Source: a virus. Taken from it: a stretch of DNA of 64,000 bases. Where the stretch lies: positions 1 through 64,000 of IMG/VR virus record IMGVR_UViG_3300044639_001298, one strand, 5' to 3'. Under the pieces are notes generated by a model, which had not been told where the DNA came from, ran no database searches, and saw only the letters and a program-made list of their open reading frames with translations. Below, piece after piece: positions 8,560-17,200 of this stretch; position 1 is the first letter of the stretch, and each line of letters opens with the position of its first letter. Made by a program: the position numbers and the translations under genes.

Positions 8560-9357
8560 TTATAAATCTAAATTTATATCTCCAGGTTCATAATTGTAAA
8601 AATGTTTGTATAAATGAATAAAAGCAACGTCTCTTTGTTCCTCCATCGGTACCGACCAACCTGTCTTATCAAACCAATTACCTTCATTTCTACTATCGTA
8701 TTGAGCCCAATCATCCCAAATACCACTTGTATAACCAGCATGTTGGAAAACAAACGATAAACTAGCATCGGACCATTCAATAGGTCTTGTATCCAATTCA
8801 CGTATTTTTTGCCAATCAATCTCGTCTAATCTATTATAGACATCGATAAACGCTTCACGATTAAAAATTGTTCCTCCACAACCACCATAACTTTGAAGCG
8901 AACCTAAAGGTGACCAATGGTTTCTTGATTCGTCAGTTATACTAAACTTATCTTTCAAATATTGATAAAGTTCATTAGTGTATGCCGGTCCGTTAGCACC
9001 TGCTATTGTAAATTTAGGAGGGATGGTAATTTCATTTTTACACCATACGTCATCTTCATAGTGTATTACCCAATCCACATCTTTTAGTGTTGTAGTACAG
9101 GCGTCATAAATTCTTTTTAACCAAGCCAAATTACTTTCAATTCCAACTACGGGTCTTCCTGAATGTCTTAAGTTTTGTCCAGTAACATCAGTTTTTTTAT
9201 AATCACAATTGAATTTTTTTGCTACGGGTTCCAATACGTCTGAACCATCTTCATATAATGCAACAGGTATGTTTGGGTATATTTTTCTTAATTGTTCTAA
9301 TGCTTTATAACAGGCAACTAATTTATAACCTGATTGATAAAATGCTCCTATTTTCAT
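8560..9357 (-). CDS. Glycosyltransferase, GT-A fold
   Basis: This 265-residue protein has the layout of a GT-A glycosyltransferase. It has an N-terminal nucleotide-binding half and then the acidic metal/nucleotide-sugar motif in WVIHYEDDVWC (E101-D102-D103). After this comes SYGGCGGTIFNREAF, which looks like the acceptor-side loop with a glycine-rich turn, and an acidic IEWSDASLSFVFQ segment that could supply the catalytic base. The start overlaps the stop of the 400-residue-class glycosyltransferase upstream (ATGA), so the two are made together. Its sugar and target cannot be read from the sequence. Candidate targets are the Thr/Pro-rich fibres encoded next to it; host surface glycans or phage DNA are alternatives. 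Confidence 0.75.
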   Translation of the reverse strand: MKIGAFYQSGYKLVACYKALEQLRKIYPNIPVALYEDGSDVLEPVAKKFNCDYKKTDVTGQNLRHSGRPVVGIESNLAWLKRIYDACTTTLKDVDWVIHYEDDVWCKNEITIPPKFTIAGANGPAYTNELYQYLKDKFSITDESRNHWSPLGSLQSYGGCGGTIFNREAFIDVYNRLDEIDWQKIRELDTRPIEWSDASLSFVFQHAGYTSGIWDDWAQYDSRNEGNWFDKTGWSVPMEEQRDVAFIHLYKHFYNYEPGDINLDL

Positions 9358-10550
9358 AATAATATGTCTTGTCTATTGACCCATTCTCCATTTATGTCGT
9401 TAACCCAATAAACCCATTTATGTGGTTTATCGTAACTTTCAATTCTTAAATTTAATTTTTCTTGATAACTTGTTAAATCTTGTCTGTATATAACTTCACC
9501 TTTATCGTCTTCAACTCCAATGTAAATAAACTTGAAGTTTTCAGTATGTGGTATATCCAATTCTAAATCAAATACTTGTTTTTGTTTTAGATACCACTCA
9601 GTTTCATCATTAATTGGTGGGTTAATTCCTTTGATTGTATCAGGATGTAACATTCTTTCTTTGAAACTAATACCGGCATATAATTCATAATCGTGGTGGG
9701 TTCTTACTTCACCAAGACCATAAATACCTAAATCAATATTGTTATCTTCTTCTTGTAACATATGTCTCAACCTTCTTTTTGAGTCATTGTCCATTTCCCA
9801 CCACGGTTTTTCAACAACACCTGAAACTAAATTATCCGTATTAAAATCCGTCCAATGTTTTGTTCTACCTTCTCTTGTGTATTCATGCCAAATTATTGTT
9901 TTATGTGGATGAAATAAATCATAACCTAAGGTAAATGAACGAATTGATAAACTAATCTCATCGCCAGCGAAATAAATGTTTGGGTCGTACTTATATTCTT
10001 CACAATGTTTTCCGATAGTAAAAAAGAAATGTCCACTAACAAATCTTGCGGGGATTGGTTTATCTAAATCTTGCCAATTAGGTATCCCATTAGGTCTAAA
10101 AAGAATTGTTCCTCCTGGTGTGAAGTTTGATGCAACCATTTTATATGGTTCAACATTTAATAACTGATTATTACTTGGTCTATACATTCCTGCATATGAT
10201 GTGATGATTGGTTTTTCTGACCCCGTTAGTTTCATCATTTCGATTAATTCAACATCCCAATCCTGTAAGAATCTGTGATGTGAATCTAATTGAAGTGTGT
10301 ATTCTTCACCATTCCATAATTTTTGGATTTCTGAACGAGCCCAACATAGTCCTTTACTTTTTGACCAATGGTAATCTAAGATTTTGAATCTTGGGTCATT
10401 TGCAAATTCTTCCATTGATTCATTTTCATCTCGTTGCCAACAAATACCAAATGTTAAATTTTCGGGATGTTTTGCTTTTGAAATACAGTCTCTAATTGTG
10501 GGTAAAAGTTCGGGGTCTCTATAAGACGCGATTTGTACAAATATTTTCAT
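9354..10550 (-). CDS. GlcNAc-transferase family glycosyltransferase (PF11397-like)
   Basis: The opening IFVQIASYRDPELLPTIRDC and the following LTFGICWQ are characteristic of the UDP-GlcNAc transferase family founded by Dictyostelium Skp1 hydroxyproline GlcNAc-transferase. The divalent-metal DxD motif appears as DSH in YTLQLDSHHRFLQDWD (about residues 86-101 of the longest frame). This is followed by GGTILFRPNGIPNW and an IYFAGDEISLSIRSFTLGYDLFHP block with the conserved GDE. I chose the ATG at 10550, because the longer frame begins with a TTG two codons earlier. The family attaches GlcNAc to proline-derived hydroxyl groups in its founding member, and the neighbours encode long Pro-Thr stalks. 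That link is an inference. Confidence 0.82.
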   Translation of the reverse strand: MKIFVQIASYRDPELLPTIRDCISKAKHPENLTFGICWQRDENESMEEFANDPRFKILDYHWSKSKGLCWARSEIQKLWNGEEYTLQLDSHHRFLQDWDVELIEMMKLTGSEKPIITSYAGMYRPSNNQLLNVEPYKMVASNFTPGGTILFRPNGIPNWQDLDKPIPARFVSGHFFFTIGKHCEEYKYDPNIYFAGDEISLSIRSFTLGYDLFHPHKTIIWHEYTREGRTKHWTDFNTDNLVSGVVEKPWWEMDNDSKRRLRHMLQEEDNNIDLGIYGLGEVRTHHDYELYAGISFKERMLHPDTIKGINPPINDETEWYLKQKQVFDLELDIPHTENFKFIYIGVEDDKGEVIYRQDLTSYQEKLNLRIESYDKPHKWVYWVNDINGEWVNRQDILL

Positions 10551-10575
10551 AATCAAATACTATGAAATATTATAT

Positions 10576-10587: not shown

Positions 10588-10788
10588 TTAAGCTATCTCA
10601 TAACTACCATTCCAAATAAATCTATCGCTAGTCGTCCATGTAAATGGTTGTGTTGGGTTTACGTCACTAGCAGTTCCATTTGCAATATTTACATATTGCA
10701 TAGGGGCTTTAGTGTTAAACCCTGCTCTTCCTCCAGCCATTGTAGCATTATACCAAGCACTACCATTATCTAATAGGGTTACCGTCAT
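10588..10788 (-). CDS. Separated C-terminal piece of the collagen-like tail fibre
   Basis: The 66 residues read as the second half of a beta-sandwich domain often found at the ends of phage and Bacteroidetes fibre proteins (TVTLLDNGSAWYNATM to FTWTTSDRFIWNGSYEIA). The first half of that domain is the end of the 942-residue fibre just upstream, which stops at SMPVTAVR. Reading this frame upstream of its ATG gives YADAILM, which fits directly onto SMPVTA. The two parts are in frames differing by +1. The piece is therefore either made by +1 frameshifting at CGC-TGA-C, translated separately, or broken by an indel or sequence error. It has no ribosome-binding signal of its own. Confidence 0.6.
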   Translation of the reverse strand: MTVTLLDNGSAWYNATMAGGRAGFNTKAPMQYVNIANGTASDVNPTQPFTWTTSDRFIWNGSYEIA

Positions 10789-10798
10789 TAATATGGCG

Positions 10799-13627
10799 TC
10801 AGCGTACGGCTGTAACCGGCATCGAGACGTACCATTCTCCTGTGCCGAAAGTTGTTGTACTACCCATCGCGATATTTCCTCTTACAAAACATGTTTTACC
10901 AATTAGTTTGTAGTACCCTTCTATTGTTCCATTACCAATTACAGGATTAGTACCACTTGCCGTCCATACAGGTGTATAAGATGTCCAAGCGGATTCTATT
11001 TGTGAACCAGAAAGATTAAATGTTATTGCAGATACTGATGTTGCAGATATTGTTGTTGAAGTTGCAGTCAACGCTGATAATGTAGTTGCTGATACTGTTC
11101 TTGAAGTTACGGTAGTTGCTGATACTGTTGGTGAAGTTACCGTTAATGCGGATAATGATGTGGCAGATATTGTAGTTGCTGTCATACCACTTGTAAAAGT
11201 ATTACCACTAATTATAACAGAACTACCAGACATTGTAACTAAATCAGAATTGTTTACTCTGAATTTCATGTAACTTGGTGGGAATGAATTGTTAGTTACA
11301 AACATATCAATACCGACAGGTACGCTTGAATTGTCTGAAATCCCTAATTGGATTTTTCTATCAGAGCTTAACTCGTCACCACCGCTTGATGCTATAAATG
11401 GCCCTTCTTTGTTAACACCACCTGTGGATGTAATTAATAATTCTCCGGTTCTTTGATAGATAGACCCATTAACATCTAAGTCATACACAGGGGAGTTAAT
11501 CCCAATTCCCATCCTTTTATTTACGTTATCCCAAGTAAATCCAGTAGTTTGACTTACCGTACTTGCCGAACTTTGGAATAGGACTCCACCTGTAAATCCT
11601 GATTGAATCTGTGTTGAGTTAATAATTACTACATCACTTGGTAAATTTTGATAAGTTGTTGCAGATATTGTTGTTGCAGAAATGGTAGATGCGGATAATG
11701 CTGCGGACCAAATAGCATTACCACTAGCATCAGACACTAAAACATACCCCGCAGAAGCTCCTGATGTAATTTGAAGATTTATAGTTTTTGTTTTACCGCT
11801 AACATCTACCCTCTCAGTTGGATTTTCAGTTCCAAAACCAACATAACCTCTTGTTGTTCCAGTTCCTTTTATAAAAACATCTGAAATATTTGCTGAAGTA
11901 CTGCCAACTTTTATTTTTATATTGTTTTCACTATTAGTAACTCCTGACAGTGTTAGTATATTAAAGTTGTTAGTATTTGTCATACTAACAAATGTATCTC
12001 CCGTTACATACCCTCCTGATACTGGAAAGCTTTCACCAAAAGCACCAATATTGAAACCTATACCACCAGCAGTTACAACTGCAGTTGAAAATTGAGTTGA
12101 TGTACCTGATATTTGAATTCCTGATTGACCAATACTAGGTTTGAATCCAAAACTTCCGTACTGTGAACGGAAATCTAAATCAAATGAAGGTACTGTGTTA
12201 AATCCTACTCTTTTATTTGGTAAATCTAAAACTAACTGATTAAATTTACCAAAAGTAACTATTCCTTCATCATTTGTATTTATACCTAATGGTCCACATG
12301 AACGTAATCTTGTTGTAAATACATCAGTAACACAAGCACTACTGTCACCAACAGTAGTCGTATTTATTGTTGTTGCAGATAAACCTTGACTAAAAAAAGT
12401 TGTACCTGTTACCGTACCACCTGATAATGGTAAAAATTCACCACCACCTCCAACACCGCTAGTACCTGAAGTTCCATTTATACCTGAAGAGCCGTTTAAT
12501 CCTGAAGAACCGTTTGTGCCATTTATGCCCGATGAACCTGATGAACCATCTAATCCAGAACTACCACTAGTACCATTTATACCTGATGAACCTGATGAAC
12601 CATCTAATCCAGAACTACCACTAGTACCATTTATACCTGATGAACCGTTTAATCCATTTATACCCGATGAACCATCTAATCCAGAACTACCACTAGTACC
12701 ATTTATACCTGATGAACCGTTTAATCCAGAACTACCACTCGTACCATTTATACCTGATGAACCCGAAGTTCCACTTGAACCTCCACTTACTGTGGCTGCT
12801 GACCATATACCGTTACCACTTGCATCCGATACTAATATGTAACCCGCAGTTGCTCCTGATGTCATTTGGAAACTTATTGTCTTTGTTTTTCCACTTACAT
12901 CTACCCGTTCAGTTGGGTTTATAGTTCCAAAACCTACGTAACCTCTCGTTGAGCCGGTTCCTTGGATGTGTATGTCGGGTATTGTCCCATCAGGGTCGTC
13001 CCCCGCATAAAATCTAATGTAATCTTCAGTTCCACTAGTACCAGCGTTATTAATAATATTTAATCCGTTAGCTTCATTACTTGCATAGACAAAAGCATCA
13101 CCTACTTTACCATAACCTGGATTAGTCACACTATCCCAAGTTCTCATACCTAACTGAACAGACGCGGTTGGTTTTGTTAAGTAAGGTGATACACTTACCT
13201 GAAACATAGGTAAAGATGTAAATCCTGAAATATTTAATCTACCTCCTAATTCATTTGGATTAAAAATCATAAACCCGGTACTTCCGGTTATAGTTCCACC
13301 CGAAAGTGGTAAAAATTGTCCATTTCCGGTACCAACACCACTTGTTCCACTAGTACCGTTAGTACCATTTATACCAGAAGAACCCGAAGACCCATTTATA
13401 CCACTTGAGCCGTTGGTACCTGAAGTTCCATTAGTACCGCTAGTTCCCGCACTACCCGCAGTTCCTGTGGCTCCTGTAATAACACTTGCTAATTGTTGGA
13501 TTGTTGCCTTATATGATGACCCCGCAGCATTCTGTGAAGTATCACCTGTAATTACTATATGAATTAAATCATTAAGTGTAACACCCGTGGCTAAGGTTCT
13601 ATCGGTTAATCTATTGTAAACTGGCAT
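10799..13627 (-). CDS. Collagen-like tail fibre
   Basis: This 942-residue fibre has Gly-X-Y tracts at about residues 56-97 and 283-391 (units such as GINGTSGSSGLDGSSG). Each is followed by an FLPLSGGTxTGxT motif of phage fibre repeats and by a repeated block with TERVDVSGKTKTI and GYxLVSDASGNxIWSA. A later part (about residues 840-910) is a run of SATTVTSRTVSATTLSALT repeats, probably a beta-helical shaft. The sequence ends at SMPVTAVR, in the middle of a terminal beta-sandwich domain whose other half lies in the next frame at 10588-10788. The N-terminus (MPVYNRLTDRTLATGVTLNDLIHIV) should be the particle-docking part. Confidence 0.82.
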   Translation of the reverse strand: MPVYNRLTDRTLATGVTLNDLIHIVITGDTSQNAAGSSYKATIQQLASVITGATGTAGSAGTSGTNGTSGTNGSSGINGSSGSSGINGTNGTSGTSGVGTGNGQFLPLSGGTITGSTGFMIFNPNELGGRLNISGFTSLPMFQVSVSPYLTKPTASVQLGMRTWDSVTNPGYGKVGDAFVYASNEANGLNIINNAGTSGTEDYIRFYAGDDPDGTIPDIHIQGTGSTRGYVGFGTINPTERVDVSGKTKTISFQMTSGATAGYILVSDASGNGIWSAATVSGGSSGTSGSSGINGTSGSSGLNGSSGINGTSGSSGLDGSSGINGLNGSSGINGTSGSSGLDGSSGSSGINGTSGSSGLDGSSGSSGINGTNGSSGLNGSSGINGTSGTSGVGGGGEFLPLSGGTVTGTTFFSQGLSATTINTTTVGDSSACVTDVFTTRLRSCGPLGINTNDEGIVTFGKFNQLVLDLPNKRVGFNTVPSFDLDFRSQYGSFGFKPSIGQSGIQISGTSTQFSTAVVTAGGIGFNIGAFGESFPVSGGYVTGDTFVSMTNTNNFNILTLSGVTNSENNIKIKVGSTSANISDVFIKGTGTTRGYVGFGTENPTERVDVSGKTKTINLQITSGASAGYVLVSDASGNAIWSAALSASTISATTISATTYQNLPSDVVIINSTQIQSGFTGGVLFQSSASTVSQTTGFTWDNVNKRMGIGINSPVYDLDVNGSIYQRTGELLITSTGGVNKEGPFIASSGGDELSSDRKIQLGISDNSSVPVGIDMFVTNNSFPPSYMKFRVNNSDLVTMSGSSVIISGNTFTSGMTATTISATSLSALTVTSPTVSATTVTSRTVSATTLSALTATSTTISATSVSAITFNLSGSQIESAWTSYTPVWTASGTNPVIGNGTIEGYYKLIGKTCFVRGNIAMGSTTTFGTGEWYVSMPVTAVR
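12453..12775 (-). repeat. Collagen-like coding repeat of the tail fibre
   Basis: Imperfect units of 36-54 bases (plus strand CCATTTATACCTGATGAACC type) encode Gly-X-Y triplets. Several units are identical over more than 40 bases, so recombination could add or remove blocks. Confidence 0.85.
13336..13462 (-). repeat. First collagen-like coding tract of the tail fibre
   Basis: This shorter Gly-X-Y tract encodes GTSGTNGTSGTNGSSG-type sequence near the N-terminus of the fibre. It is less uniform at DNA level than the tract at 12453-12775. Confidence 0.75.
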
Positions 13628-14226: not shown

Positions 14227-17200
14227 TATGGGCAGGTTTGAACATTTGTTATTACACCAGAACTATTAACTTGGATTACATATTTAGTATTATAATTACC
14301 TAATTCATCACTTGGAGCGGTAGGATAAGTAATTGCAATCCATTTGTTGTCTCCATTAACCAAGTTTGTGCCGGTAGCCCCAGAATAAACGTTTGAACCA
14401 ACAGTAGGTGGAACACTAAAGGTATCAATAAAATACATTGTTTCATATGCTATATTATTACACGCATCGCCACTTGTTGTTGCTGAAATTACATTATTTC
14501 CAATCCATGACTGACCACCAAATAAAGGAGTAGTGTACCTATATAATAATATATTAGAACCACTAGCCGGATTTATGGTAGAACCAGATGAAGACGCAAT
14601 TATTTCAAATAAAGCAACTTTTTGACCAAATGTTGACGATGTGGTGTTTGCGCTTGTTACGAATGATAATGTTCCTGTACCTGAACCGTTAGTAGTAACG
14701 GTAAAAGTGTTTGCACTATATTCATCATATAATACTCCGTTGATTGATGAACCACCTGAAAATCTTATCAAATTAGGTAAAGTAAATCTTATTGTTAACG
14801 TTTCATTAGGTGCTCCTGCATAGTTCAAATTACCTGACTGTATTTGTGGTGTTGCCCATTGACCTCCACCAGTATTTACCCATGTCCCAGATGGAAATCT
14901 TGCGAGATACCCTGGAGTTGGTGTTGGCGTTGGTGTTACAGTCGGCGTAGGAGTTGGTGTTGGCGTTGGTGTTACAGTCGGCGTAGGAGTTGGCGTCGGC
15001 GTTGCAGTAGGCGTCGGTGTTGGTGTTGGCGTTGCAGTCGGCGTAGGAGTTGGTGTTGGCGTTGCAGTTGGCGTCGGTGTTGCAGTTGGCGTAGGAGTTG
15101 GCGTCGGTGTTGCAGTTGGCGTAGGAGTTGGTGTTGGTGTTGCAGTTGGTGTAGGAGTTGGCGTCGGCGTTGCAGTTGGCGTAGGAGTTGGTGTTGGTGT
15201 TGCAGTTGGCGTAGGAGTTGGTGTTGGTGTTGCAGTTGGTGTAGGAGTTGGTGTTGGTGTTGGGAATAAATAACCTGAACAAGTAACGTCATACACGATT
15301 TCTAAACCTAAACTAAAGTCAGCATCCGCAAGTGGGTCATTATCACCATCACAATTTGAAAGGATTGTTAAAGTATTATTTAATAAATCTATGGTATAAC
15401 TATCAATTTGACTTATACTTGACAAAACACTTTCAATTGTTGATTGCCAAACCGTATCTTGTGGTACATCATTCAATGTTGTTGCTGTATAGAAAGTCTG
15501 AGTGAATGCACTTCCATTTATATCAATCTCACACGTTAAGACCGCTGAGTTGAATACGCAATTAGTATATCCTGAAGTAATGTCTAAATACCCCTCGTTC
15601 AACATTTCAACTAAACCTCTTTGATTACCAGGTACAGTCGTAAAGGTATTTGTACAAAGATTAAAAGTTTGGTACGATGACAGTAAATTACCTATACAAC
15701 TGATTGTTACACCTTGTGTTTGTGTACATCCCGAGGCGTCTGTGATATTAACGGTATAAGTTCCTGAACCTAAGTTAGATGCTGTCGCACCTGTCTGTCC
15801 GTTTGACCACAAATAAGTAAATGGTGGTGACCCATCATAAATGTTTACCGTAGCACTACCGTCATTTGAACCTGTACAATTAGTTGTTACAATACCCGTT
15901 AAAAGTGAACCACCTGTTGTGATATCGAAAGTTTTAGTTACAACACAACCATCAGCATCTGTCACGTTAAGTGTATAACTTCCCGCAGCCAAACTAGTAT
16001 ATGTTACAGAAGATAATGGTGAGTCGATAAGAGTATCACCATTACTTAAAACATAATCTAAAGGTGATGTAAAACCTGTACTTACTTGTATCAACGCAGC
16101 ACCGTTTAATTGATTACATGTTGAACCAGTAGTTGTTGCGCTAACTGTGAATTTTGGCGTTGATGTGACGCTTACTTGTTGACTATATATACAAGTACTA
16201 GCAGTTCCTGAAATCGTTACCAAATATATATCGGTTGGTAAATTTGTGAAGGTATATGTTTGGCTTTGACTAACGAAACTTTGTACAGAACTTGTTGTTT
16301 GTGCAGATAAAGTATATAGATACGTTTGGTTAGTACCCCCTATAGTAACATTTATTGACCCTCCGTTTGCATTACAAATAGGGTTGGTTGATGAAATATT
16401 TACAACATCGAATCCTCCGGGTGTTGTTAAATTACCACTTACTAAAACTTCACAAAAACTAGCGTCTCTAACCAATACCTCATAATTTCCAGCACTTAAA
16501 CCTGAGATTGTAAACGTGTCTGAAAGAGTATAACTAACAAGACCCGTAGTTGCCGAATAATAAAGTGGTTGTGTTCCTCCTGATATCGTAAAAGTTAAAG
16601 AACCGTTATTTTGGAAACACGATGGTTGTTGAGCAGTAAGAAACGATAACCCTAAAGGTAATGCTGTACCGATTGTTTCTGATTTTGTTGTCTGACAACC
16701 TAAACTATCTGTAACCGTACATGAATAAGAGCCTTGGGTTAATCCAGTAATTACTTGAGTTGTTTCACCATTACTCCATAAATAAGTGAATGGTCCTGTG
16801 CCTGTTGCTCCTGTGACCGCAAGTTTACCCCAATTCAAAGTACAGTTTGATGTGTCTACCTTCCAAAAACCAAAATCAACCGCAGTACTGGCACTCACAA
16901 TAACATTTTCGGTTATTGCCGTTGCTAAACCATTATCAACCACAACACAATAATATATACCATCATCTAAATTTGCAATGGTTGTTGGCATCGTTGATGT
17001 CGTAGTTGTTGATAGGTAATTACTATCTTTATAAACTAATATTGTAAAAGGTGAACCAGATGTTGCAGCACTAACTTGAAAACTACCGTTTGATAAACCA
17101 CACGTAGTACCACTTGTACCAAATATTTTTGCATCAAAACACCCACTTACCGTAACGTTTATATATAACTCGTTGTTTTGGACACCTAAACTATCATTTA

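Follow-up and report, generated by a model that had tools for sequence, protein, structure and literature searches.

The locus described here raises the question of why a phage fibre-like gene stops midway through its C-terminal domain, with the remainder of that domain lying open in the +1 frame. The initial annotation left several answers side by side: programmed frameshifting, a separate gene, a recent mutation or a sequencing error. The features in question are listed below by their coordinates in the window, which is the whole stretch of 64,000 nucleotides that was analysed; L001 is a near-identical twin contig and L002 a more distant relative.

10799..13627, minus strand: fibre-like gene, a 942-codon ORF with collagen-like repeats, cut midway through the C-terminal domain (ORF, Pfam, PHROG, twin).
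10588..10806, minus strand: continuation (second half) of the C-terminal fibre domain, which the break leaves in the +1 frame; L001 and relatives have it in one frame with the first half.
10799..10807, minus strand: frame break, where one copy of an AC dinucleotide is gone relative to the twin L001 and the relative L002, making an in-frame TGA (sequence comparison).
10588..11020, minus strand: terminal domain (about 144 amino acids in the twin), predicted to be mainly beta (AlphaFold2 model, phrog_13144; no Pfam family).

The 942-amino-acid ORF ends in ...GEWYVSMPVTAVR at CGC TGA, followed by C, the last residues being SMPVTAVR before the TGA. Past the break, the +1 frame reads ADAILMTVTLLDNGSAWY...RFIWNGSYEIA and is open to a TAA at 10588, and within this stranded second half a 66-amino-acid ORF is possible from an internal ATG at 10788. 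When the window's own viral record (G000, 71,741 bases) was searched with the joined domain, the two halves were found in two frames. The local G+C content is about 0.52 at 10780–10859, around the break, versus 0.3 to 0.4 nearby; this rise is common to the twin and less so to the relatives, and apparently came about via synonymous changes.

The genes in the neighbourhood encode a baseplate J-like protein, a DnaB-like helicase and a ribonucleotide reductase, and therefore the virus is taken to be a tailed phage. Directly downstream of the fibre gene is a GlcNAc-type glycosyltransferase family gene (PF11397, 1.5e-65; 9354–10556, minus strand), with relatives at 63 viral loci. In its N-terminal part, the fibre has G-x-y repeats of the collagen-like kind (Pfam Collagen, 5.3e-21), with PHROG matches to tail-fibre and collagen-like minor tail families, and the C-terminal domain matches phrog_13144 (2.8e-13), a family of unknown function, but no Pfam family.

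An AlphaFold2 model of the twin's intact domain was mainly beta, with a mean pLDDT of 70 that fell below 50 for residues 96–126. The break, at domain residue 72/73, lies between predicted strands 63–65 and 78–85, and three predicted strands, including the last (134–143), would go with it. The beta-sandwich named in the initial annotation is thus plausible in that the model is mainly beta, but at this moderate confidence the fold is not established. A fold search of the PDB with the modelled domain yielded no hit at E≤0.001; of the phage matches, the most plausible was a weak one to the Dettilon tailspike 6f7k (E of 0.05, TMq of 0.53). A sequence-profile search of the PDB gave no match.

Terminal domains of the AWTSYTPVW type were also found in many Streptomyces genomes, Streptomyces phages and Rheinheimera Barba phages (L143–L163; MT497226), and this type of domain, which here has no Pfam model match, seems to be widespread. 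In the Rheinheimera Barba phages, the tblastn matches end at query residue 72, the position of the break, and a conserved break in these phages was considered and rejected: the annotated CDS of MT497226 continues uninterrupted well past the match, and the partial match is therefore attributed to divergence only.

A scan of IMG/VR using the terminal domain yielded 54 loci, the best of which (L001, G001) is on IMGVR_UViG_3300046007_007661, a separately assembled contig of 35,943 bases from the same virus. This twin aligns to window positions 2511–38461, carries the same fibre gene and is near-identical across about 35.7 kb; up to its final ~200 bases, it was found to differ from the window by only two substitutions (at window 22982 and 36221) and two gaps. 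The 12-base gap is in frame within a proline-threonine repeat gene; the 2-base gap is at the break, where there is one AC in the window and two in the twin. As a result, the fibre domain of the twin is intact and in a single frame, and its fibre is an uninterrupted protein of 1,013 amino acids that is the same as the window protein up to residue 941. Relative L002, which is more distant than the twin and has a domain 93% identical, also holds two AC copies, and therefore the one-AC form of the window appears to be the derived one. Among IMG/VR contigs, a search that may leave out records very near the window found the 23-mer spanning the broken junction in no other contig and the intact 25-mer in the twin only.

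The gene with the 12-base difference (14914–15262, minus strand) has a long proline-threonine (PTPTPTAT) repeat and encodes a structural-looking protein; because this in-frame stretch differs between window and twin, the length of the repeat array seems to vary in the population. At the end of the twin contig (window 38261–38461 compared with L060, G001), substitutions become abruptly dense over ~200 bases, and the alignment suggests that strains were mixed or that the contig end is chimeric.

Close homologues in the first set of 54 loci that reach the break position read across it in a single frame. A second, alignment-based scan gave 80 loci, largely overlapping the first set, and a single-frame match with no stops was found in 79 of them; these 80 include L127, whose contig ends before the break site. 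The only exception is L114 (IMGVR 3300008111_000077, 1501–1886), in which the frame is broken by the absence of 43 bases, about 40 residues before this site in the same domain, a different and unrelated lesion. The loop around the break had no length variation in any of the 63 relatives that are at least 45% identical (63/63). The neighbouring glycosyltransferase-like gene, used as a control, was broken in 0 of 63 loci, and the difference from 1 broken fibre in 80 is not significant, the numbers being too few to reveal an excess at the fibre tip. In the fetched loci, the second part never stood as a gene by itself except as the stranded half in L114, and a nucleotide search of phage records using the gene end gave no match. 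The comparison with the intact domain in related phages, which had been proposed as a check, thus points to mutation or error, and it shows that the +1 continuation is more than chance, in that dozens of relatives have both halves as one single-frame domain.

The initial annotation likened the break to the prfB (release factor 2) +1 frameshift and suggested that two fibre forms might arise by skipping the T of CGC-TGA-C. Three elements make up the prfB signal: a run of purines resembling an SD sequence, the slippery sequence CTTT, and TGA-C (PMC12421855). The fibre site resembles it in having an in-frame TGA followed by C and an open +1 continuation, but the likeness ends there: neither CTTT nor poly-T runs into the stop (the site reads GTA CGC TGA C), the 20 bases upstream (TGCCGGTTACAGCCGTACGC) contain no run of 5 purines as an SD-like element, and there is no evident regulatory logic. 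Nor was a frame change found at the same place in the homologues, including the near-identical twin.

A one-base skip would indeed lead into the open second half. However, the window lacks two bases relative to the twin rather than having one extra, and the joined product would read VTAV-R-DAIL in place of the VTAV-HA-DAIL of the relatives, one residue short in the loop of constant length. By the rules of pairing, a P-site tRNA on CGC would re-pair poorly with GCU in the +1 frame, with a mismatch at the first codon position. CGC, which precedes the stop, occurs 4 times in the 34 window genes, and TGA terminates 3 of the 34; therefore, the rare codon and the rare stop are as expected of frame-shifted reading and not of an evolved site. 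On the grounds of motif, conservation and joined-product length, a programmed frameshift yielding two fibre forms was rejected as very improbable. UGA-C is a weak stop, and so some leaky frameshifting may occur, with a low-level functional frameshift product from the fibre gene being possible. Read-through of the TGA in frame 0 was also rejected: the zero frame soon hits another stop, and therefore decoding of UGA as an amino acid would not join the halves. Literature searches yielded background but no precedent for this site.

It is still less credible that the second half is a separate downstream gene (a split fibre or a chaperone-like second product) read from the ATG at 10788. Such an ORF exists, but its product would miss the start of the strand at the conserved ADAIL, and in the intact relatives the same sequence is fused in frame as the latter half of a single domain; among the loci fetched, none of these relatives has it as a gene of its own. 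Phase variation by repeat slippage was considered as well and set aside, there being two AC copies in the twin, one in the window and no tandem array listed there.

The break in the window is very probably a non-programmed 2-base deletion, either a rare allele or an error of a single assembly. Ordinary chance mutation or assembly error is the most likely origin because the near-identical copy and nearly all of the ~80 related sequences are unbroken, and the lesion is unique and derived, as for a frame-disrupting indel. These were the last two options of the initial annotation, and the intact twin and relatives speak for them. Between the two, we slightly favour a real minor allele and leave the choice undecided.

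The chance that the deletion arose by replication slippage and segregates in a natural population, possibly selected for loss or change of the tip, is put at about even. Consistent with this, the rest of the sequence is clean, with two isolated SNPs along about 35.7 kb of alignment with the twin and no further difference seen that would alter the frame; loss of one tandem dinucleotide is a typical product of slippage; L114 independently carries a different frame-breaking deletion in the same domain; and the control gene is intact at all of its loci. However, only one copy of the broken form is known, and the difference between broken fibre and control genes is not significant. An assembly or sequencing error in the window's contig has a somewhat less than even chance: the otherwise near-identical twin is intact, the broken junction is nowhere else in IMG/VR and loss of a strongly conserved domain should be costly. 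Against an error, it would be unusual for a well-covered short-read assembly to have a consensus error of 2 bases outside a homopolymer and no other such lesion in about 35.7 kb.

If the deletion is real, the steps would be as follows. One of two tandem AC copies would have been lost from the last domain of the collagen-like fibre gene, this 2-base loss would shift the frame into a premature TGA, and the C-terminal domain of the encoded fibre would then end without its last three predicted strands. Judged from a model that resolves the second half poorly, the truncated domain would likely lose its folding; misfolding or loss of the tip domain should follow, and the outcome may be a defective particle or an altered or lost receptor contact. 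The case resembles known frameshifted phage fibre alleles (pseudogenising or host-range-altering indels) in that a small indel truncates the distal fibre, and it differs in being one metagenomic contig known by sequence alone. It is unlikely, though conceivable, that the broken allele really exists as a selected variant that has lost the tip and coexists with the intact one, so that two fibre forms exist by mutation and not by recoding; if this were true, L114 would be an independent second instance.

The break is therefore best regarded as an ordinary event of a kind already known. For annotation, it matters in that, without the twin, the fibre would be entered either as a pair of proteins or as a candidate for recoding. 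For phage biology, the intact and broken copies provide a modest lead on the loss of fibre tips in natural phage populations.
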